Below, one piece after another: positions 3,394 to 18,429 of a stretch of DNA of 37,031 nucleotides. A program made the translations under genes and the position numbers. The first letter of the stretch is position 1. Every line of letters starts with the position of its first letter. The notes beneath the pieces were generated by a model. That model was not told where the DNA came from and ran no database searches. It worked only from the letters and a program-made list of their open reading frames with translations. Location of the stretch: the IMG/VR virus record IMGVR_UViG_3300028498_000074, positions 1 through 37,031 of that record. One strand, 5' to 3'. This stretch comes from a virus.

Positions 3394-6060
3394 CTAAGCC
3401 TCCGACCCATTTTCAAAGACCCAACACTTGACTGTCTTATTACCAAAGACCGCGCTCGAGACAGCAACGTTTGAATCTATAAACTTGTTTTTTTGACTAG
3501 ACTTAAGCAGACGTTTCATTTCTGTTTGGTCTGGTAGACGCTGACCTTCTTGCTGCGCGATTTTGTAGAATCTCGGAAGATTAATCGCAATGCGCTTTTT
3601 ATCCGTATAGTGGTTCATCTCGCACTGTGCCAACGTGTTGAGATACTCGTAAATCTCCCAGAACTGCTCTACCAATGGATGATCGCTTGATAGTCTAGCC
3701 ACACGCTGATGCGACATCTCTATTAGCTTGGACTTGGCGTCATTGGCTTGAGTCTCTGTCATGACGTCTTCTAAGACGTGCATCTGTAAGCAGTCGACCA
3801 TCGCGGCTATCTGTGCATGATTGAGCGCTATACGAGTGTGAGTAACGCCCGCTGCATGATAAAAAATTTCGTACTCTCTGACCTTTCGCTTATACGTTTC
3901 AAGGATAGCTTCTTCATTACGAATGGCTTTTACCATGAATTGACTGGTGACTTCTAACGGGATGCGGTCTAACTCATCGACTAAGTATTTGGTCTGTAGC
4001 GTCTGGCCTTCACGTGTTAAACGGATATGCAGCAAGCGTGTGAGCATGGCTTCAGATGCTTGAATAGGTTCGTTTTGACTAATCATGATCGCAGCACGAA
4101 ACGGTGGTGAGTAAGTGTCGTTGCCGTTATTCTTGACGCCACGACTACGGATTGACCGACCATTGAAAGCATCCTTTAACTGGTCCCACTCAAATTTTGA
4201 ATAAGATTGTTTGCCATCTTGGTCGTTACGATCGCCTTCAATTAACGCGATGGGCATATTAGATACTTGGGCAAATTCACGATAGATAGCGACCGATGTG
4301 GCTTTTGATGGGTCAAATCCTTCGTAATCTTCGCGACCTGATAAGCGCCATAAAAACTCTAAAAGACGCGACTTACCTGCACCTGCCTGACCGACTAACT
4401 CAAAAAACGGATAGCTACGATCGATGCTGCGTATCTGCTCGGCAAAATAAGTGCCAAGCCACCACGCCATAACAACGGTGCCATAAGCGTCGCGAACTTG
4501 GTTGAACTTGGACCACCAGTCAAAATTGGGTTTGTCCTTGGTGTTGAGCTGCATGATGGGTGAGTTTGCCAACGACTTAACTTCTAGTCGACCGAGTTTG
4601 AAATAGTCTTGCTCATTGATAGCGACAGCTTTGCCTTTATGCACAGCGGTGTCGTTAAAGATATATGCGCCAAACTCTTTGCTATAGCCGATGAAGTCAG
4701 TGGTTTTTACTTCTTTGAGTGCTTCGGTCTGATGACGCATGATGATATCGAGCTGACCGGCGGCACCCGTCCAGAAAACACCGGCATAAACAGAAAGTAA
4801 GCGGGGCTTGAATTTGGAAGGACTCGATAACTGGTCACCTGTGATGGTAGTAGTGACACTGCCTTTTGCCGTGCCTACACGCATGAAGTACCAGGACTCA
4901 TCGGTAATCTCGTTACGCTGGAAATAAAGCGCTTCAAGCTTGGCATTACATAGTTCGGTGACAGTACTGCAGCTCTTCACAAACTCTGGCATCTGCTCAT
5001 CAACGTCGGTCAAATCGCTGACTGATTCGAGGTAGGCGCCTACTTGATGCTTCTCTACACCGATGCAAGTAGAAAGGGCTTTTGTATCGAGCTCAAACCA
5101 CCATGTGCGGTAGTTATATTCAAAGTAAAAGCTGGTGCGCTTGGTGTGCATATACATAATAACGGCGGATTGCATGGCAGAGCTGGCTGTCAGTAAGTTA
5201 CCGTAATAGCGATAGTTCTCAATATGTTCAGGCGATAGACGATCTATCTCATGCAAGTCATTCCAATCAAGCTGACGATGCTTCTCGTACGGTGGCTGAG
5301 CAGCGCTGCACTCAAAGCCCATGTCTGTCGCGGACTTTACATTACGACGGATGCCGTCTTGACCAGCTTTGTCATTGTCAAACGCCCACACTAGCTTGGG
5401 CAGTATATGCTTGGCTTTGTCATACTGGCTTTTGAGCTCGTAGAGACTGTGCTCGGGGAAGTTTGAGCAGCTGATAGAACTGACTGCATCAAGACCGTTT
5501 TGACGTAGCGCCATGGCATCAAAGATACCTTCGGTTATCCAAATCTCGGTAGGCATCTGGGTATTGGCAGGATGCCACCACCAGTAGCCCTTTACACTGT
5601 AGCCATACTTGATGTTTGCCTTGCGTGGAAATCTATCAGCTTGGTCAATAATGCGCTCCCACCAGCCGCCATTCGGCAAGTTAAAACGAACGGTCGCTGA
5701 TGAGATGTTTAAATCACGGTTAGAATACATCTCTTGGCTATAGCTGCCTTTGACCGACTGGATGCTAAGACCACGGCCCTCATTTAGATAAGCATCTGCT
5801 GCAGCATTGGGACTGACATCGGTCTGCTTATATGTCGCTGACCAGTCGGTGAACAGGTCAGAAAATAGATCTCTGACGTGGACTTCCATACCGCATTTAT
5901 TGAGGCGGCCGCATTTGACGACGCGGGGCGTAGTGGAGTGAGTGAATAAAGATTTTTTACTGCAATCAGGGCAGCGACCCTCTCTGAGCCATTGGCCGCT
6001 TACCTTGAATCCATAGTCCGAAATCAAGCGGTCTACGACTTTGTCATTAATTCGTGTCAT
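3394..6060 (-). CDS. Bifunctional primase-helicase (TOPRIM + P-loop ATPase)
   Basis: The replication protein of the phage. An N-terminal zinc ribbon (C30, C33, C50, C56) is followed by a TOPRIM primase core: E177 in ITEGIFDA, and D228 and D230 in AFDNDKAG. A P-loop helicase domain has Walker A GQAGAGKS at 557-564 and an acidic ALIEGD strand at 605-610. The last 95 residues (about 794-888) form a separate module ending in NKTVKCWVF that also occurs in the next two larger upstream genes. The length of 888 residues suits a large phage primase-helicase rather than the P2 rolling-circle protein A, so replication may differ from P2. AGGTAACACC precedes the ATG. Confidence 0.9.
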   Translation of the reverse strand: MTRINDKVVDRLISDYGFKVSGQWLREGRCPDCSKKSLFTHSTTPRVVKCGRLNKCGMEVHVRDLFSDLFTDWSATYKQTDVSPNAAADAYLNEGRGLSIQSVKGSYSQEMYSNRDLNISSATVRFNLPNGGWWERIIDQADRFPRKANIKYGYSVKGYWWWHPANTQMPTEIWITEGIFDAMALRQNGLDAVSSISCSNFPEHSLYELKSQYDKAKHILPKLVWAFDNDKAGQDGIRRNVKSATDMGFECSAAQPPYEKHRQLDWNDLHEIDRLSPEHIENYRYYGNLLTASSAMQSAVIMYMHTKRTSFYFEYNYRTWWFELDTKALSTCIGVEKHQVGAYLESVSDLTDVDEQMPEFVKSCSTVTELCNAKLEALYFQRNEITDESWYFMRVGTAKGSVTTTITGDQLSSPSKFKPRLLSVYAGVFWTGAAGQLDIIMRHQTEALKEVKTTDFIGYSKEFGAYIFNDTAVHKGKAVAINEQDYFKLGRLEVKSLANSPIMQLNTKDKPNFDWWSKFNQVRDAYGTVVMAWWLGTYFAEQIRSIDRSYPFFELVGQAGAGKSRLLEFLWRLSGREDYEGFDPSKATSVAIYREFAQVSNMPIALIEGDRNDQDGKQSYSKFEWDQLKDAFNGRSIRSRGVKNNGNDTYSPPFRAAIMISQNEPIQASEAMLTRLLHIRLTREGQTLQTKYLVDELDRIPLEVTSQFMVKAIRNEEAILETYKRKVREYEIFYHAAGVTHTRIALNHAQIAAMVDCLQMHVLEDVMTETQANDAKSKLIEMSHQRVARLSSDHPLVEQFWEIYEYLNTLAQCEMNHYTDKKRIAINLPRFYKIAQQEGQRLPDQTEMKRLLKSSQKNKFIDSNVAVSSAVFGNKTVKCWVFENGSEA

Positions 6061-6739: not shown

Positions 6740-7555
6740 CTATTGCTCGTTTGGCATGACAAATACCCAGCATTTCTTGGTATTGCCCGTGATCGTGCTA
6801 TTGATCGCGTGGTTGCTGTCTTTGAACTGAGGTATCAAGCTGTGCTTGAGCGCTGATAGCATGGAGCGGCGCTGGGGCAGCTGCTCTCCTGCTTGAGTGT
6901 ATAGCTCTGGTAAGCTGATCGCCAAAACTTGCGGGTCGCGGCTATGATTGATCGCTTGCAGATCCAACTGACTGACGGTATCCCAAAACTGGTCTAGTGC
7001 GGTCTGCACCTGCGGTGGTATGTTCGGTAGCGTCGGCTGCTGAGGGCTGCGCTCCTCACCACTATGGGTGGCATGATATAAACCACTGATAACACCCTTT
7101 TCACTATGACCTGTGAGCTTTACCATCTCGGGGATGGTGAGAGCCTGTAGATAGCGTGTCCAGTCGGCATTGGATACGGACATTGGGGTAGGTGCTGGTG
7201 CGCCTACCTCTGCATCCAATATATCTAGCACCCAAACGCGGAAGTCCTTGGCGACCTTAGTACGAGCAAACATAGCGATAAGGTAACAGCCGCGTAAGGA
7301 AAATATGCGGTTGTCCATTTCGATATTACCTGTTTTTCTAACGGTGGTCATATTGACCACCGTTGTCATTGCCGATGTGAATTCATTAGCATTACGGCTA
7401 TGTATTTTGGTTATAGAACGAACATCTGAATAATCTAAAGCCTTTGCCAAGTCACTGGCTGTCATCCAAATCTGACCGTCACGTATCACTGGGTTTAGAG
7501 TGATACCGTTAAACGCCAATGGCATTACTTCGTTGTTACCTTTCTGCTGATTCAT
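6740..7555 (-). CDS. Bro-N domain protein (antirepressor-like) with a primase-type C-terminal module
   Basis: A 271-residue protein. Residues about 10-115 form a Bro-N domain (WMTASDLAKALDYSDVRS, then FSLRGCYLIAMFARTKVAKDFRVWVLDI), a DNA-binding domain common in phage antirepressors. Residues about 182-271 repeat the module at the C terminus of the primase: INHSRDP, a helical L-rich stretch, KDSN and GNTKKCWVF. The middle (GHSEKGVISGLYHATHSGEE) is probably a linker. It lies between an Ogr-like gene and a gene with the same module. A role in relieving repression is suggested by Bro-N alone. AAAGGAAACAGCACG precedes the ATG. Confidence 0.82.
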   Translation of the reverse strand: MNQQKGNNEVMPLAFNGITLNPVIRDGQIWMTASDLAKALDYSDVRSITKIHSRNANEFTSAMTTVVNMTTVRKTGNIEMDNRIFSLRGCYLIAMFARTKVAKDFRVWVLDILDAEVGAPAPTPMSVSNADWTRYLQALTIPEMVKLTGHSEKGVISGLYHATHSGEERSPQQPTLPNIPPQVQTALDQFWDTVSQLDLQAINHSRDPQVLAISLPELYTQAGEQLPQRRSMLSALKHSLIPQFKDSNHAINSTITGNTKKCWVFVMPNEQ

Positions 7556-9139: not shown

Positions 9140-9206
9140 CGTGGATACTCCATAATTGCGTTTTGTGATAAAGTGTTATCTGTCTTACGAGCTAACAACT
9201 GCATTA

Positions 9207-9230
9207 TTACATGCTCAAACGAGCATGTAA
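9207..9230. promoter_or_regulatory. Perfect 24-bp operator palindrome in the immunity region
   Basis: TTACATGCTC (9207-9216), spacer AAAC, then GAGCATGTAA (9221-9230): ten-base arms with no mismatch. It lies between the divergent early operon and the repressor gene, overlapping the region where both promoters must be. A weaker dyad, GATAA / TTATC, is at 9167-9180. The site is the natural candidate for repressor or RHH-protein binding. Confidence 0.75.
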
Positions 9231-9247
9231 AGGAGATTTTTGGTCAA

Positions 9248-9592
9248 ATGAGCATTTTATCTGATAATGATATAGGCGAAGGTATTGCTTCGAGATTGGT
9301 TTTCGAGCGTAAAAGGCTTGGTTTAGAACAGGATTACGTTAGAGAAGTGCTAGGAATAGCCAACTCTACGATGTCTCGTTATGAAAATGCGAAGCGCTAT
9401 CCAGATGTCATTTTAGCCAAACGGCTATCTGATTTAGGTTATGACATGGCTTATGTGATCTCTGGCAAACGTCTGGATGAGTCTGCTAGTGATCTGACTG
9501 AAGAGGAAATGCAATTGTTAGAGCTATATCGAAATAGCCAGCGGCGTGCTGAACTGGTGAGGCTGATAAAGACTTATGAGTCTATGGAGTAG
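9248..9592 (+). CDS. Immunity repressor, XRE-type helix-turn-helix
   Basis: A protein of 114 residues from ATG 9248; AAAGGAG lies about 13 bases upstream and the 24-bp palindrome just before that. A GTG-started longer frame from 9173 would read through the operator and is rejected. The HTH is at about residues 27-50 (EQDYVREVLGIANSTMSRYENAKR). The C-terminal part is short and helical, with no LexA-type protease, as in P2 C-type repressors that are not cleaved by RecA. Divergent from the early block, it should maintain lysogeny. Confidence 0.85.
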   Translation: MSILSDNDIGEGIASRLVFERKRLGLEQDYVREVLGIANSTMSRYENAKRYPDVILAKRLSDLGYDMAYVISGKRLDESASDLTEEEMQLLELYRNSQRRAELVRLIKTYESME

Positions 9593-10731: not shown

Positions 10732-10854
10732 ATGAATATAGAATCTGATAGATGGATGACTCTGTGGCTTGAGCATTTCTTTAAGCATGCTGTTCCAGTG
10801 ACGACGCTGCCGCATGGCTGGTGCGTATATCGTGAGCCTGTGGATTGGGATTAA
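10732..10854 (+). CDS. Possible 40-residue tryptophan-rich peptide
   Basis: ATG 10732 to TAA 10852-10854 encodes 40 residues with five tryptophans (SDRWMTLWLEHFFKHAVPV, then HGWCVYREPVDWD). No strong ribosome binding site is visible. It lies between the lipoprotein and the ATPase gene on the same strand. The composition is unlike random translation, but a fragment of a longer ancestral gene is also possible. Confidence 0.35.
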   Translation: MNIESDRWMTLWLEHFFKHAVPVTTLPHGWCVYREPVDWD

Positions 10855-10966
10855 TTTTGTATCACGAGTGAGAATGTTTTTTATAAATCGTTAGTAAAGA
10901 ATTTAAAATTGGTCAACTCGTTTTACAAAAATATCTTCCATATTATTAATATATTAAGGAACAAAA

Positions 10967-12952
10967 ATGTCTGATAGTAACCTTAGTCATGATGTGGATA
11001 AAACTTACAGATTTTCTGTAGATTTAGCTGCCGTAGAGCATTTAGGACTTAATCTATATAGCAATACTGCTGCGGCGCTTACCGAAATTATAGCCAATGC
11101 ATGGGATGCTGATGCTACTGAAGTACACATAAATGTCGATAGTGATTTTAAAAGAATTATTATTGAAGATAATGGACATGGGATGTCAGTTGAGGATATT
11201 AATGAAAAGTTTTTAAAAGTTGCTTATAAAAGAAGATTATCAGCACCTACTAGTCCAAATGGCAGACCTGTCATGGGCAGAAAAGGCATTGGGAAGCTTG
11301 CGCTATTCTCTATTGCGCAGCATATAGATATTACTTCGAAGTTAGAAGGCCATCTCTCTGGATCTCTGTCAATAGATGTTAATGAACTAAAAAAACATAT
11401 AGAAAACAAAACCAATTATCACCCTAAGCCCATTGAAGGTGAAATTTTTAACTTAGAGCAAGGAACTAGATTTATCTTAACTGGACTACTTACAAGTCGT
11501 CTCAATCAGTCAATTACTGCTATGAAAAAGCGTATTGCTAGGCGTTTTTCTATCATAGGAGATAAAGATAGTTTTAACGTTTATGTCAACAATGAGAAAA
11601 TAGACCATAAAGATAGAGATGATTTTAGGAACCTACAATTTGTATGGGCTTTTGAAAATGGTAGTGACTATCGGTTTCCACTAGAAGTAGAAAAGTTTAC
11701 ATTTAGTAAAAACACCATAGCTCATGACGGGGTTACCTATAGTTTCGATGGCTGGGTTGGTACCGCCCTAAAACCAAAAGATCTAAACACAGAGGATATG
11801 GGAAATTTAAATGGTATTTCCATAATATCTAGAGGTCGTGTATTTCAAGAAAATATTCTCGATAAAATTTCTGAAAATAGAATTATGAAAAGTTATGTCA
11901 CAGGTGTGATACAAGCAGATTTCCTTGATGCCGATGCTTCAGATGACTTAGCCACTAGCGATAGGCAGCGAGTAAGAGAGGATGACCCACGTTATATTGC
12001 ATTGACCAAATTTATTAAAAATCTTTTAAACAACATGTATGAAATCTGGTCAAAAGAGAGAAAAAAATATGACATTAAGCAGGCTACGAAAGAGCATCCC
12101 AAGCTTCAAGAATGGTTTGACTCATTAGCCACTGGTCATAAAAAACAAGCAGAAGAGTTAATTGCTACAGTAGCCAGTTTGAAAATAGATGAAAAAGATG
12201 AAGATGATAGAAAAGGGCTTTATCGGAGCACCATATTAGCTTTTGAGAGATTAAAGCTAGAAGGTAGTGCTAATGAGCTATCAGAAGCTATAAATAAAGG
12301 TCCTGAAGCCTTGATTCAGATACTTTCAAACTTCGATAATTATGAAGTGTCGTTATACTTGGATTTAGTTAAAAACAGATTAAACACTATCAAAATCTTA
12401 GATGACAAAGTAAACAATAATGAATACGAAAATAAAATTAGAGATTTTATTTATGAGCATCTTTGGCTAATTGACCCATCTTGGGAAAGAGTTATTGCTA
12501 GCCAGTTTAAAGAAACTGCAGTTCATAAAATGTTTGATAAAGAAGTTAAAAGTGTTTTAGATGATGAAGAGGCCAAGGGTCGTTTAGACTTATGCTATCG
12601 TAATATTGGTGGAGATCATATAATTCTAGAGCTAAAACGTCCTGATGTAGGCTATAAACTAAATAAATATACGCTTATGGCACAGGGCGAAAAATATCGT
12701 GATGCCTTATATAAGAGTCTCCATCATCACGACTCCAACTTTACTAATAAAGAAAGAATTAAGATTGTTTTCTTAATCGGCAATAGACTAGAAGGAGAGC
12801 CTAAAGAACTTGAAAAGATTTTCGATGGTATTAATGCGCGAGTATCGACATATGGAGAAATGCTTGAAAAAGCTAGATCTTCTTATGCGGATTTCATAGA
12901 GAAAACTAAAGAGGCTGACAAGACCAGAGATTTAATTGAGGCTTTTAGCTAA
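10967..12952 (+). CDS. MORC/MutL-like GHKL ATPase fused to a PD-(D/E)XK-like nuclease
   Basis: A 661-residue protein. The N-terminal GHKL ATPase has the N box E40/N44/D47 (TEIIANAWDADA), the G1 box DNGHGM at 68-73 and the G2 box GRKGIGK at 104-110. Residues about 215-345 probably form the S5-like transducer domain, followed by a helical linker. The C-terminal domain has GRLDL (D541) and ILELKRP (E555, K557), the D...ExK arrangement of PD-(D/E)XK nucleases. GHKL ATPases of this kind are known from comparative genomics to associate with DNA methylases in restriction-modification-like loci. It overlaps the methyltransferase gene by 21 bp tail to tail. AAGGA precedes the ATG. The gene is clearly more AT-rich than the phage genes around it, a sign of separate acquisition. 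Defence function is inferred. Confidence 0.87.
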   Translation: MSDSNLSHDVDKTYRFSVDLAAVEHLGLNLYSNTAAALTEIIANAWDADATEVHINVDSDFKRIIIEDNGHGMSVEDINEKFLKVAYKRRLSAPTSPNGRPVMGRKGIGKLALFSIAQHIDITSKLEGHLSGSLSIDVNELKKHIENKTNYHPKPIEGEIFNLEQGTRFILTGLLTSRLNQSITAMKKRIARRFSIIGDKDSFNVYVNNEKIDHKDRDDFRNLQFVWAFENGSDYRFPLEVEKFTFSKNTIAHDGVTYSFDGWVGTALKPKDLNTEDMGNLNGISIISRGRVFQENILDKISENRIMKSYVTGVIQADFLDADASDDLATSDRQRVREDDPRYIALTKFIKNLLNNMYEIWSKERKKYDIKQATKEHPKLQEWFDSLATGHKKQAEELIATVASLKIDEKDEDDRKGLYRSTILAFERLKLEGSANELSEAINKGPEALIQILSNFDNYEVSLYLDLVKNRLNTIKILDDKVNNNEYENKIRDFIYEHLWLIDPSWERVIASQFKETAVHKMFDKEVKSVLDDEEAKGRLDLCYRNIGGDHIILELKRPDVGYKLNKYTLMAQGEKYRDALYKSLHHHDSNFTNKERIKIVFLIGNRLEGEPKELEKIFDGINARVSTYGEMLEKARSSYADFIEKTKEADKTRDLIEAFS

Positions 12953-13954
12953 AAGGCTAAGCCCTACCACCTCCCCTAATCGGACAGGAACAGCATTACC
13001 AATCATTTTACCAACCGATTTAATAGTAAAGTTACCATCGTAAAACTCGTAATCTTCCGGAAAGGTCTGAAAGATTGCGGCTTCACGTAATGATATAGCT
13101 CTATGCTGTGATGGATGCCCAAAGCGTCCATTACCAAACCCATAACATTGAGTTGTCATTGTAGGAGCTGGCTGATCCCATTCCATACGTCCATAAACGC
13201 TACCGTAAGATTTACCTGATTCTTTAAGATGACACTTAGCAACTAAATCCTCTGGCCAGTCTTTCCACGTACCACCTGGTTTAGAGGCTTTAATACGCTT
13301 CATATTGAGCTCGTTCAACTGTGAACTTACATGAAGTGGATCTTTTTTATTTCTTTTACCAGAGTACAAGACGGGCAAATCTTTGATTACGTCTCTTACT
13401 GTTACTGGCTCGTGGTGCGTTGGTGGTATCAAATCAATATTCTTAGAAACTAAGCTAGCCAATAATACATGTCGCTTACGAGTCTGTGGTACTCCATACT
13501 GTACGCAGTCTACTTTATTCGCCGATACGGTATAACCTAGCTCTTCAAGTTTAGCTACGAAATCATGATACACCTTATGCTTAGTAACATCTGGTACGTT
13601 TTCCATCGTCACAAGCTCAGGCTTTACCTCTTCAATTAATCTCATAAAATGATAAAGAAGTGGCCACTTCTTATCTAAAGTAGTATCTTTACCTTGATTG
13701 TATGTAGAGAAAGGCTGACAAGGAGCGCAACCAGCAAGAAGGCGAACAGCACCTTCAGAATACCATTCTTTAATTTCGTCTGCTGTGACATCTGCTACAT
13801 CTTTATGGATAAAAGCAGCGTTATTATTGTATTCATAGCCATGACGACAGGCAGGCTCAATATCGTAGCCTGCTTTCACTTTAATTCCTGATTTTATAAG
13901 ACCTGCCGTAAGGCCGCCGATACCACAGAACAGATCTACCGCTTCTATATTCAT
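12932..13954 (-). CDS. DNA (cytosine-5)-methyltransferase
   Basis: A 340-residue enzyme transferring methyl from S-adenosylmethionine to C5 of cytosine. Motif I is DLFCGIGG (7-14), motif IV GCAPCQPFS with catalytic C79, motif VI ENVPDV (119-124), motif VIII QTRKRH (157-162), motif IX RAISLREAA (285-293) and motif X GNAVPVRLG (319-327). The target recognition region between VIII and IX (about 172-280) is short, including PGGTWKDWPEDL; the recognition sequence cannot be read from it. GAGGAG precedes the ATG. All catalytic motifs are intact. Its stop codon lies inside the last codons of the convergent ATPase-nuclease gene, so the two form a unit in which this enzyme could protect DNA. Confidence 0.96.
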   Translation of the reverse strand: MNIEAVDLFCGIGGLTAGLIKSGIKVKAGYDIEPACRHGYEYNNNAAFIHKDVADVTADEIKEWYSEGAVRLLAGCAPCQPFSTYNQGKDTTLDKKWPLLYHFMRLIEEVKPELVTMENVPDVTKHKVYHDFVAKLEELGYTVSANKVDCVQYGVPQTRKRHVLLASLVSKNIDLIPPTHHEPVTVRDVIKDLPVLYSGKRNKKDPLHVSSQLNELNMKRIKASKPGGTWKDWPEDLVAKCHLKESGKSYGSVYGRMEWDQPAPTMTTQCYGFGNGRFGHPSQHRAISLREAAIFQTFPEDYEFYDGNFTIKSVGKMIGNAVPVRLGEVVGLSLLAKSLN

Positions 13955-14051
13955 GACACTACTCCTCTACGTTAGCATGATACACGAACTTGCTCTAAAA
14001 CTCGAGTAGCGACACGAAATTTTTATTAGCATCTTCTCAGATTTTTAACTA

Positions 14052-14124
14052 ATCAAAAAGCCCGTGTTACTAAACATTCTAGTTGAAAACAACATATAAT
14101 GTTTAGTAACACGGGCTTTTTGAT
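14052..14124. terminator. Perfect 27-bp inverted repeat, probable bidirectional terminator
   Basis: The arms 14052-14078 and 14098-14124 are exact reverse complements over 27 bases, including AAAAAGCCCGTGTTAC and its partner. The 19-nt spacer itself contains GTTG / CAAC. T runs are present on both strands, so it can stop late transcripts coming from D and any transcript in the other direction. A 27-bp perfect stem is much longer than an ordinary terminator. Confidence 0.8.
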
Positions 14125-14137
14125 ATAAATAATAGCT

Positions 14138-14225
14138 TGCTTGGGACTGAAATCCGCGCCACGATAACACGGCCGCCTTATTCGTCTCTACAGTACTATA
14201 GAGCTTATATCAGCGTTCCCAAGCA
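14138..14225 (-). ncRNA. Predicted structured RNA element after gene D
   Basis: On the minus strand TGCTTGGGA (14225-14217) pairs with TCCCAAGCA (14146-14138). After a 3-nt bulge, CTGA pairs with TCAG. Inside is a 7-bp hairpin CTCTATA / TGTAGAG (one G-U pair) around a GTAC tetraloop. A second, weaker hairpin around CCGTG / CGTGG gives a three-way junction. It lies between the D stop and the 27-bp hairpin. It is not a tRNA and no known riboswitch was recognised. Whether it is a 3' UTR element or a separate small RNA is open. No protein gene is seen in 13955-14244. Confidence 0.45.
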
Positions 14226-14244
14226 GAATATATTATAGCACAAT

Positions 14245-15264
14245 TTATTTTAAAGAAGCCAATAAATCTAGCTGAGTAGTCAGTCCGCCATTCTTGCTAT
14301 AGCTATGCGTCGCCTTGTCTACCGTCCATTTTAGCGCGTCTATTTCTGCCTTAAACCCTTGTAACGTAATGGGGCTTTCAGTAGTCACGGCAGGATAGGC
14401 GTAGGCTGTGGTAATACTAAACTTGGCTTGCTCATCTTCAATGCGTTTCATCTCCGCCGTCGCTGCAGCAGATGCAGCTTGTTTACTCTTATAGGCGCCT
14501 TTTAATCTTTTTGTCTTAGTATTGGGGTCATCGCCACCGTCGCGTTTTTCCACATTGCCTGCAGTCGCTGTCTTTTTGGTGGCTTTCCCTTTGTCCTGGT
14601 AACCAGCAGATACACCTGTATAGTCGGCTTGTCTGTCCTCAACACTGTAACGATATCTGTCACCCGTCTGACGTGTGATAACCGTGATATCCAATGCATG
14701 TCCACTGCTACTGACATTGCTATTTGCGGTAAATACGAGTAGCTTGCCGTGCTTGATATTGACCACTGCGCCATACTGATGACAAAGCCGCGTCAATAGA
14801 TGAATGTCTGACTCATCGGTCTGGTCCACATGACCCACATCGATGCTGACAAGCTCTGGCTTAATCGATAACGTGAGCTGTTGCCGCTTGGCGACTGCTT
14901 CAGCAATTTCTCCCAGTGTCTTATTATGATACGACTGACTACGACCAGACTTCAATGATGACTTAAAGTCAGCGGATTTAGCAGTAATACTTATAGTATC
15001 TGGTGACCCTGACCACTCGCAGCTATCGACAATATAGGTGCCCATGTCGTGTACGCCTGCATCCTCAAATCCCATCCAGCACTGCAGCTTGACGCCGCGC
15101 TTGGGTAGTGCCAATGCGTCATCATGATCATCTAATGTGATCGTTAGCTCATCAGCATCAAGGTTTTTATTATCAGTGACAGATAAAGTCATAAGCCGTG
15201 CCATGACCTGATCATTGAGCGGTTTATCATCAGCCGTTAGCTTCAGTATTGGTGTCCGTAACAC
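14245..15264 (-). CDS. D: Late control / tail protein D (baseplate hub, gpD)
   Basis: A protein of 339 residues from GTG 15264, which has AGGGAG seven bases upstream and starts just after the U stop. The longer ATG frame from 15333 lies inside U and is rejected. The N terminus VLRTPILKLTADDKPL, then LTITLDDHDDALALPKRG, matches the P2 D pattern. The protein is a T4 gp27-like hub that joins tail tube and baseplate, and is needed for tail completion. The C terminus (TTESPITLQGFKAEIDALKWTVDKA) is typical. It is the last gene of the late operon, followed by the structured element and the long hairpin. Confidence 0.9.
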   Translation of the reverse strand: MLRTPILKLTADDKPLNDQVMARLMTLSVTDNKNLDADELTITLDDHDDALALPKRGVKLQCWMGFEDAGVHDMGTYIVDSCEWSGSPDTISITAKSADFKSSLKSGRSQSYHNKTLGEIAEAVAKRQQLTLSIKPELVSIDVGHVDQTDESDIHLLTRLCHQYGAVVNIKHGKLLVFTANSNVSSSGHALDITVITRQTGDRYRYSVEDRQADYTGVSAGYQDKGKATKKTATAGNVEKRDGGDDPNTKTKRLKGAYKSKQAASAAATAEMKRIEDEQAKFSITTAYAYPAVTTESPITLQGFKAEIDALKWTVDKATHSYSKNGGLTTQLDLLASLK

Positions 15265-15265
15265 G

Positions 15266-15700
15266 TTATGCTCCCTGCGCTGGTGTATTTGGTTCGACCA
15301 CTTTATCTGCTTGAATACGGTCATCGTCCACACGCATGAGTTTCATCGTACCGTCAATCTTGCGCGCTATGCCGATATTGGTAATATGTGATCGCGTCTC
15401 GTCAATCCCGGTAATGGCAAACACGCCATAGATATAACCACTACCATCAATAAGCACGTAGCCGCTACCGCTGTCTGCCATCTCTGATAAGTCATCGATG
15501 GATTGACGATGGCCAAAACCGTGCGACTGATAAATCAAAAATGGGATAGTAACGGTCTCCTCACCAGCACCTGTAAACTGATGCTGGTCACGACCCTGGG
15601 CAATGGAGTTGCTAGCATGGGACCAAGACCGGCTACGCTGTAACTCACTAAAGGTCATGGTATCGACATCGAAGACAAACTGTCCTAAAGATAAAAGCAT
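15266..15700 (-). CDS. U: Tail protein U (tape-measure-associated, gpU)
   Basis: A protein of 144 residues from ATG 15700, which overlaps the T stop as TAATG and has GGAG eight bases upstream. An ATG at 15706 would add two residues. The P2 gpU pattern is clear: LSLGQFVFDVDTMTFSELQRSR, then WSHASNSIAQGRDQHQFTGAGEETVTIPF. gpU is needed for tail assembly in P2-like phages. It is translationally coupled to T and followed by D, the P2 order. Confidence 0.9.
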   Translation of the reverse strand: MLLSLGQFVFDVDTMTFSELQRSRSWSHASNSIAQGRDQHQFTGAGEETVTIPFLIYQSHGFGHRQSIDDLSEMADSGSGYVLIDGSGYIYGVFAITGIDETRSHITNIGIARKIDGTMKLMRVDDDRIQADKVVEPNTPAQGA

Positions 15701-18429
15701 TACCATTGCTCCGCTAAGTCATAAAGTGCTGTGTTATTGGTTGATTGACTACGCTGTACTTTAGCCATTTCCTGCGCCACTAATTGAGCGATTTTCTGCT
15801 CTGATTGGTGTGGTTGTGCATAGATATTAATAGTAATAGGAGCTGCAGCTTGGCTTTGATTATTGCTACCACCCATCATTGCTGAAGCACTGATCGGCTT
15901 ACGACTGTCAAAGCGAATCTCACTGGTGTCCATCGCATCGCGTAGGTTGTTACTGGTGTTTAGCATAGATTGGACAGGACTATCATTTTTTAGAAGCCCA
16001 TTATTCAAGCCCTGCATCATGAAATCACCATACCCAGCAAATACCCGACTAGGGGAATGTATGCCCATTAGTCCAGTAAATGCGCCTTTGATTCTACCTG
16101 CAACGCCTTTAATGCCTTCGACAACGGCTGTGGCTCTGCTCATAATGCCATTTTTCAGACCGTCCATTATCTGACCGCCCATCGCTGACATCTGAGCCGG
16201 TAACCCTGCCAAAAACGCCATCATACGGGCAGGCAGTGCTGCTACGTAATTAATAGCCATGCCACCATATACCACAACCATCCCTGCAAAGGTGCCAATA
16301 GCCGTACCAATAGTCTGAAATCCTAGTGCTAGTGCGCCTACTAACCCAGCAACGACTTGACCAATCAAGCTAACAATCGTTCCTAAAACAAAGCCGAACT
16401 GACTGCCATAAGACGTTGCTGTGGCTAATTGCGAATCGGTCGCTTGGAATGGCGCAATCAGTGACATCAGTGCTGAGCCAAGCCAAGTAATGCCTGCAAT
16501 AATTAAATCTAATACGGGGCGTAGTGGTGCAAAAATGGTTGATAGCATAGAACCTAAGTTGCCTAAGGTCGCTTGAAGCGGTGCTATGCCCTGCATGAAC
16601 CCTGTCCACATCCCTGCAAAAAATGCTTTGACCGGTTGCCAGTACTTAATCAGTAATAGTCCAGCAACGGCAATGGCCATAATTGCCCAACCAATCGGCG
16701 TAGTGACCAGTGCCACTGATAACTGACCTAGCGCTGTAATCAAAAACGGCACGGCGTTACGTGCTAAGAACCAAAAGGTCCTGCCAAATAGTTTGCTGAA
16801 CCACAGCAGTGCTTGTCCCATTAGCTTGAACTTACCCCAAAATGATATACCAAGCTTGGCTAAGATAGCGTTGAATATCATGATGCTTGCGCCAAACTTG
16901 ATAAAGCTCGCCGCCATGCTGAAAAATGTGCCAAACATCAGGGCAGCACCGTATTTGACCAACCAGATTGCAGCGTTAATCCTGATGAACTTAAGTGCTA
17001 AGGCACCAATAGTCTTAACCAATTCGGGATTGGCTTGAGCCCAAGCTGTTATTTTATTGATTATCTCCGTTACATTCGTCACCACTGCTCTTAACGTACT
17101 ATTGAGTGCACCGCCTTCACCACCCAACGTGATAGACATAGATTCCCATGCGCCTTTCATTTGATCTATATCGCCAGCTAAGTTATCCATTCTGGTTGCT
17201 GCTACTTTGCCTGCTAAATCCTTAGCATTCTCTAACTCTTTCGTAAATTCAGTAATGTTATTTACGACTTTTCCAGTATTCTTATCGAGTACCTGTGAAT
17301 TAGCCACTAAAACTGCAAATTTGGATAAGTGCTCTTCACCAGCCAAACTTTTAAATATGTCGAACTTTACATCATCGTTTAGATTCTTGGTCTTTTGATT
17401 GATCTCAGCGAGCACTTCATCGATTTGTCGCATCGTCCCGTCTTTATTGACAGTTTCAATCTTTAGGCCACCTAAAGCTTCTCTAACAGGTTTAGGGGTG
17501 GACGCAAGCCTTGTCAAAATTGTACGAATGCCTGTACCTGCTTCGCTACCTTTAATATTGTTATCGCCTAATATACCCATCATTGCGCTGGTTTTTTCAA
17601 TACTTGTGCCGTAAAGTCTGGCAATGGGAGCGGCATATTTCATAGCCTCGCCCAAATCTTCAATGCCCACTGCAGATTTGTTGGCAGTAGCTACCAACAC
17701 GTCATTCATCCGACCAATTTCCTTTGCTTCCATACCAAAGCCGTTAAGTGTACCTACTGCTATCTGCGCGGCCAACGCAAGATCGACTTGTCCTGCTGCA
17801 GCTAAATCCAAAGATCCAGCTAAGGAGTCCATGACTTGTTTGGCTGTAAAACCCCCAGCCGCTAGTTCAAACTGTGCTTGGGCGGCTTGGCTTGCAGAAA
17901 ATGCTGAGCGAGCGCCTTCACTGATCGCTTGCGATCTAAGCTTGGTCATCTCAGCTGAGGTTTTTTCTAACTCAAGCACCGCTTGGTTTGCACTCATCTG
18001 CTTGTCAAATTCGATAGATGGCTTAAGTACTTGATAACCTACTAATGCTGCACCGCCGAGCGCAACAGCGCTATTCAAAACCTCCTGCCGCATCTGCTTT
18101 CTTGTTGCTGCAAAAGATTTGGCTAAGCCATCAGCCTTGCGCTGTACAGCGACTACACTCTTAAATACTAGAGCAAAGTCTGCAGCTAGCCCTTTGGCGT
18201 GTTGCCTAGCAGTCGATAATAGGCTATTAGTACGGCCAAGCGGCTGATTGACTCGACTAAGCCCTGAGTTATTGACTTGCGCTAAACTACTATTAAACGC
18301 ATCGACTGTACGTGTCGCACGTTCGAACGACCTTGATAGTTTGTCAGACTTATCAATAATACCGCGCAGTGGCGCGGAAATATCATCGATCAACTTGAGT
18401 GTTGCGGATAGATCTAAGTTGTTCGCCAT
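15700..18429 (-). CDS. T: Tail tape measure protein T (gpT)
   Basis: A 909-residue protein, close to the length of P2 T (815). It sets tail length and is extruded at infection. The first 130 residues are helical and coiled-coil-like. Residues about 135-320 form the conserved TMP core (ALGGAALVGYQVLKPSIEFDK and the GTGIRTILTRLASTPKPVREAL region). Several long hydrophobic stretches lie between about 470 and 730. The end carries SPSRVFAGYGDFMMQGLNNG, a frequent TMP motif. AGG lies eight bases before the ATG. Several long frames on the opposite strand inside this gene are reading shadows. Confidence 0.93.
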   Translation of the reverse strand: MANNLDLSATLKLIDDISAPLRGIIDKSDKLSRSFERATRTVDAFNSSLAQVNNSGLSRVNQPLGRTNSLLSTARQHAKGLAADFALVFKSVVAVQRKADGLAKSFAATRKQMRQEVLNSAVALGGAALVGYQVLKPSIEFDKQMSANQAVLELEKTSAEMTKLRSQAISEGARSAFSASQAAQAQFELAAGGFTAKQVMDSLAGSLDLAAAGQVDLALAAQIAVGTLNGFGMEAKEIGRMNDVLVATANKSAVGIEDLGEAMKYAAPIARLYGTSIEKTSAMMGILGDNNIKGSEAGTGIRTILTRLASTPKPVREALGGLKIETVNKDGTMRQIDEVLAEINQKTKNLNDDVKFDIFKSLAGEEHLSKFAVLVANSQVLDKNTGKVVNNITEFTKELENAKDLAGKVAATRMDNLAGDIDQMKGAWESMSITLGGEGGALNSTLRAVVTNVTEIINKITAWAQANPELVKTIGALALKFIRINAAIWLVKYGAALMFGTFFSMAASFIKFGASIMIFNAILAKLGISFWGKFKLMGQALLWFSKLFGRTFWFLARNAVPFLITALGQLSVALVTTPIGWAIMAIAVAGLLLIKYWQPVKAFFAGMWTGFMQGIAPLQATLGNLGSMLSTIFAPLRPVLDLIIAGITWLGSALMSLIAPFQATDSQLATATSYGSQFGFVLGTIVSLIGQVVAGLVGALALGFQTIGTAIGTFAGMVVVYGGMAINYVAALPARMMAFLAGLPAQMSAMGGQIMDGLKNGIMSRATAVVEGIKGVAGRIKGAFTGLMGIHSPSRVFAGYGDFMMQGLNNGLLKNDSPVQSMLNTSNNLRDAMDTSEIRFDSRKPISASAMMGGSNNQSQAAAPITINIYAQPHQSEQKIAQLVAQEMAKVQRSQSTNNTALYDLAEQW

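Follow-up and report, generated by a model that had tools for sequence, protein, structure and literature searches.

A predicted BbrUII/HgiDII-family restriction-modification pair with a GHKL ATPase-nuclease as cargo of a P2-like prophage

Two convergent genes in the window, i.e., the complete 37,031-nucleotide stretch of viral DNA analyzed here, very probably form a type II restriction-modification system that is complete and belongs to the BbrUII/HgiDII family; it is cargo of a P2-like prophage and would restrict foreign DNA that lacks its mark. The first gene (positions 10967–12952, plus strand, ATG start) encodes a protein of 661 amino acids, a BbrUII/HgiDII-family restriction enzyme of the paraMORC3 type (R). 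The second (12932–13954, minus strand, ATG start) encodes an m5C DNA methyltransferase of 340 amino acids (M). According to the coordinates of the open reading frames, the two genes overlap tail to tail by 21 bp (12932–12952), exactly as an earlier note on this DNA had described. The same note placed the pair in an AT-rich island flanked by the immunity region and gene D of the phage. This is in full agreement with the GC contents of 34.7% for R and 40.9% for M versus 45–46% for the remaining phage, and with the Pfam assignments of the flanking genes: on the left resides an immunity-region gene for an HTH repressor-like protein (9173–9592, plus strand; PF01381; transcriptional regulators in PHROG), on the right gene D for the baseplate hub (14245–15333, minus strand; PF05954, Phage_GPD, E = 4.8e-18). 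Judged from the sequences, chance is excluded as the source of the features of R and M because both proteins match their families over the full length and have conserved active sites.

R passes the NCBIfam profile NF050001 (BbrUII/HgiDII family restriction enzyme) with 691.9 bits, the curated (equivalog) cut-off being 550 bits, and its residues 14–658 align with positions 1–657 of the 659 positions in the profile. The best PADLOC match is a type II restriction enzyme as well (REase_II, E = 4.8e-105). The GHKL ATPase domain (residues 34–157, positions 11066–11437, plus strand, with the codon for E40 at 11084–11086) is recognized by Pfam as HATPase_c_3 (PF13589, E = 4.4e-25). In an alignment with 56 homologues from bacterial and archaeal genomes, the ATPase residues E40, N44, D47 and D68-x-G70-x-G72-M73 proved invariant, and so did the loop G104-R-K-G107-x-G109-K110. 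The GHKL motifs are thus intact, as had been claimed from the letters of the sequence. Further invariant residues in the same alignment are E488, E516, R539, D541, E555, K557, Q573 and Y577, among them the D541...E555-L-K557 nuclease motif that the earlier note had pointed out. The reading frame is open and every catalytic residue is present. R is a divergent protein, sharing at most 43% identity with any relative found. Note that its placement in the tree is not firm, as it sits on a long branch and no starred set contains the window protein.

The AlphaFold2 model of full-length R (mean pLDDT 82.5) resembles the N-middle domains of TRAP1/Hsp90 and MORC2 in Foldseek comparisons. Secondary structure and fold match to the Hsp90/MORC2 N-middle domains place an S5-like transducer region at approximately residues 203–321 (11573–11929, plus strand), and this region is followed by helices at residues 341–483 of the model. 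The model, fold matches and invariant residues delineate a C-terminal PD-(D/E)XK nuclease domain at residues 488–661 (12428–12949, plus strand), in which E516, D541, E555 and K557 are encoded at positions 12512–12514, 12587–12589, 12629–12631 and 12635–12637, respectively (plus strand). When residues 478–661 were modelled separately (pLDDT 81.8), the resulting structure matched EndoMS/NucS (Foldseek E = 5.9e-4, Z = 10.3), E. coli SduA (E = 6.7e-4, Z = 8.4) and the Shedu nuclease of B. cereus (Z = 8.4), where a Z of about 8 taken alone can be background. Several restriction enzymes are also resembled, with lower scores. The Z values agree with the invariant E-D-ExK set, whose members occupy one helix and two strands of the model, as expected, with weak matches of seven of the 56 homologues to SduA_C (PF14082, best E = 4.4e-6), and with matches of a few of the 56 to other PD-(D/E)XK families. 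The modelled C-terminus of R is thus a PD-(D/E)XK nuclease fold of the NucS/Shedu type, and a non-nuclease fold did not turn up in this part of the protein. In profile searches of the PDB, R matched Hsp90- and MutL-like chains with its ATPase part only, and no convincing match to the nuclease domain emerged.

This domain set is that of paraMORC3, which combines a GHKL and S5 module with a C-terminal RE-fold nuclease carrying E-D-ExK and occurs in restriction-modification neighbourhoods near cytosine methylases (Iyer 2008, PMC2292703). R exhibits all of these features, including the GHKL motifs and the nearby cytosine methylase, the difference being that paraMORC3 was defined as a class from gene neighbourhoods, with activity unmeasured in that study. 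The combination of ATPase and nuclease in one chain had been called uncommon in the earlier note. It is instead the norm for the family.

M is a complete m5C methyltransferase, as previously stated: PF00145 covers residues 5–332 (E = 2.6e-54) and the protein carries PCQP, ENV and QxRxR motifs. An identity profile across 62 homologues delimits a target-recognition core at residues 205–288 (13091–13342, minus strand). In this core the mean identity to the window protein is 64%, compared with 49–50% in the catalytic parts. Recognition cores are usually the most divergent part between methyltransferases of different specificity. Since the core is the best-conserved part of M, the relatives of M would share one target site. 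The known target of M.HgiDII is GTCGAC, and M.BbrUII, also a 5mC enzyme, is homologous to it (PMC5867850). Family membership together with conservation of the recognition core therefore makes GTCGAC the probable site of M. This sequence occurs seven times in the window versus 5.2 expected, i.e., it is not depleted, and because the prophage makes its own methyltransferase the count says nothing for or against the predicted site. A point against the restriction-modification reading is that one M.HgiDII homologue, in Haloferax volcanii, gave no detectable methylation (PMC5867850). The closest relative of M found is the methyltransferase of Moraxella phage Mcat24 with 74% identity, and a restriction-modification survey of Moraxella catarrhalis (PMC6241649), consulted for the site of this enzyme, does not contain GTCGAC. 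In Mcat24 (L130:2116-5013), the recognition core of the M relative is 76% identical to that of the window protein. Here and in Peduovirus P24B2 (L131:140-3041), where the frame of the M relative is broken by a frameshift, the methyltransferase faces a different convergent partner, namely a GmrSD_N protein plus a HEPN protein (NsnA/PD-T4-2-like in PADLOC). The same methyl mark apparently goes together with effectors of unrelated kinds.

Of the 80 genomic homologues closest to R, a set that is ranked by similarity and hence not unbiased, 53 have an M-family methyltransferase at a distance of up to 4 kb, often overlapping the R gene. M precedes R in tandem in 44 of these loci, the genes converge in eight and R precedes M in one (L082). 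Note that four of the tandem loci (L046, L071, L085 and L087) were re-assigned to this group, as over-extended ORF starts had led the script to call them R before M, which leaves L082 as the single real case of that order. One of the remaining 27 loci contains a weak divergent match and 26 are devoid of M. A second sample comprised 274 genomes of the class of G001, the genome that harbours the Pseudomonas locus L048. Two of these pass the NF050001 cut-off, one being the centre genome itself, and M is adjacent in all of the four strongest R hits. The co-occurrence that the earlier note had expected is thus seen in most relatives (53/80 and 4/4). On the R tree, the label for convergent order undergoes nine changes on 11 rows, and the convergent geometry has therefore probably arisen repeatedly. 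In one convergent homologue (L092:5994-6305), PADLOC identifies a Vsr mismatch endonuclease between R and M, and in another locus (L049) an ORF of sequence similar to Vsr is visible. The window pair is not accompanied by a Vsr gene.

The surrounding genes are those of a P2-like prophage. Pfam identifies an integrase, a Toprim-domain gene, the HTH repressor, gpD, gpU and a gpP-like terminase. A GAPDH-like gene (1–1176) next to the integrase (1582–2751) occupies the leftmost part of the record and is probably host DNA flanking the prophage, and the early region of the phage includes a BRO-N domain gene (6740–7555). The related viral contig L097 provides an empty site: positions 10756–10852 and 14113–16164 of the window match positions 5126–5030 and 4990–2969 of the contig, with 39 bp between them. 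The R/M pair is therefore inserted cargo. The segment missing from L097 extends from about 10855 to 14051 (limits approximate) and holds just R and M, while a 40-amino-acid backbone ORF to its left (10732–10854, plus strand) is conserved in L097 beside the empty site. Between M and gene D lies a strong two-way intrinsic terminator (14052–14124) with 30-bp arms, a 13-nt loop and A and T runs, which closes the late operon. Its inverted repeat is 97% complementary (−45.6 kcal/mol, z = −12.95). A consensus scan missed this terminator because of the 13-nt loop.

The cargo is replaceable. A sister phage (L093) with a 95% identical gpD has other genes at the same place, including one for a DUF4760 protein. 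That segment (L093:9092-12050) also holds genes for two small proteins that lack family matches, and its genes are candidates for further defence genes. In L098, a single WYL-domain ORF takes the place of the R/M cargo. Among 37 viral contigs whose gene D is related, none was found to carry a homologue of R or M, and a viral scan with R yielded one relative, L002, which is weak and partial. In E. coli P2, the hotspot for such cargo is located between gpA and gpQ (PMC9122126), whereas the window cargo resides between the immunity region and gpD.

With the NF050001 family assignment, the nuclease fold, the co-occurrence of the two genes and the replaceable position in a P2-like prophage, the restriction-type defence proposed in the earlier note is well supported by comparative evidence. 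Like the BbrUII/HgiDII type II systems, the pair combines a full-length R above the family cut-off with an adjacent m5C methyltransferase whose recognition core is strongly conserved. It differs in that the genes converge rather than stand in tandem, that the pair is prophage-borne and that R is divergent. This family of restriction enzymes was recognized decades ago, and annotations of P2-like E. coli phages already include the same tail-to-tail pair. In coliphage PhiR44_1, the convergent genes are annotated as ParaMORC3 and Dcm protein. The PhiR44_1 pair recurs at 99% identity or more in 30 of 5,426 complete E. coli genomes, where some members are labelled BbrUII/HgiDII family restriction enzyme in RefSeq. 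The convergent two-gene form, which had also been taken to be uncommon, is therefore a recurrent one. The E. coli pair shares with that of the window the two protein families, the convergent order and the status as cargo of a P2-like phage, but is only 35% (R) and 56% (M) identical, has a 40-bp gap instead of the 21-bp overlap and resides in the gpA–gpQ hotspot instead of beside gene D. Given paraMORC3 (2008), PhiR44_1 and the 30 E. coli genomes, the R/M pair is a new member and not a new kind of system.

In principle, the presence of a GHKL ATPase-nuclease beside a methyltransferase can also be explained in other ways. R could be a Shedu-like (type I-D) anti-phage nuclease that on its own senses phage DNA or DNA ends in an ATP-gated manner, with M as a loosely linked or self-protective companion. 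The precedent is VcSduA from the Vibrio cholerae WASA lineage, a GHKL-type Shedu and single-gene system that defends without a methyltransferase and loses phage defence upon exchange E27A in the ATPase or K557A in the nuclease; proteins with its organization were formerly called paraMORC3 (PMC12137116). R has the same order of an N-terminal GHKL ATPase and a C-terminal PD-(D/E)XK nuclease, its C-terminal domain resembles SduA, a family matched weakly by the seven homologues mentioned above, and some close homologues of R lack an M-family methyltransferase within 4 kb. Nevertheless, we consider this explanation unlikely. VcSduA contains the DUF4263/SduA_C domain and needs no methyltransferase, whereas Pfam detects no SduA_C in the window protein at E values up to 0.1, and yet R passes the BbrUII/HgiDII cut-off. 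Moreover, the methyltransferase is adjacent in 53 of the 80 relatives and its recognition core is strongly constrained. Membership of R in Shedu, considered for its fold and the likeness to VcSduA, is doubtful: SduA_C is not detected in the window protein, although the fold match to SduA (Z = 8.4) and the seven homologues with SduA_C matches point towards that family.

Methyltransferases that lack a restriction partner are common in phages, and the two genes could accordingly be an orphan-like epigenetic pair, in which methylation by M controls genes of the phage or the host while R no longer cuts. This is very improbable, since all catalytic residues of R are intact in an open frame and the Mcat24 relative of M has a GmrSD/HEPN partner of its own rather than none. 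Even less credence can be given to the idea that the pair is the remnant of a larger multi-gene system, for instance DISARM, where the GHKL-nuclease would stand between an adenine methylase and helicases. Many close homologues of R do adjoin DrmMI, DrmD, DrmA or DrmB, and in the tree such Drm-flanked homologues branch close to the window protein. Four of the 26 loci devoid of M were scanned (L014, L015, L016 and L043) and have DrmD, DrmA, DrmMI and DrmB as DISARM-like neighbours; other M-less loci resemble DISARM operons by eye, with the R homologue apparently an extra component. In the window, however, the interval from the immunity region to gene D revealed neither a helicase nor any other Drm-like gene, and the empty site in L097 limits the cargo to R and M. 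DISARM membership, considered for the Drm-flanked homologues, was rejected because the window lacks Drm genes and the neighbours are phage genes.

We thus return to the restriction-modification system as the best explanation and propose that M would mark prophage and host DNA at a single short site, for which GTCGAC is the prediction. R probably dimerizes through its GHKL/S5 module, and would bind DNA and cut foreign DNA that lacks the mark via the C-terminal NucS/Shedu-type domain, with ATP binding controlling its action. A lysogen may thereby restrict incoming phages and plasmids. Of all steps in this scheme, the ATP clamp has the least support and is unproven. By analogy with VcSduA, dependence of R on ATP is plausible. 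HgiDII, however, is classed among the ordinary type II enzymes, and no ATP requirement turned up in the literature examined. It is possible, but in our view rather doubtful, that R is an ATP-gated restriction enzyme in which the GHKL/S5 module closes on DNA as a clamp once it has recognized an unmethylated site, or encounters either DNA ends or a second site, and only then licenses the NucS/Shedu-type nuclease.

What is new here is an intact, divergent and phage-borne member of a restriction family with an unusual GHKL ATPase that the curated name does not reveal. Its position beside gene D shows that P2-like phages have a second variable site that can hold restriction cargo. The family is filed under type II restriction, yet its ATPase site is invariant, and the compact two-gene cargo would permit a direct test of why this is so. 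If the ATP-gated reading were true, the BbrUII/HgiDII family would connect classical type II restriction with Shedu, DISARM and MORC proteins.
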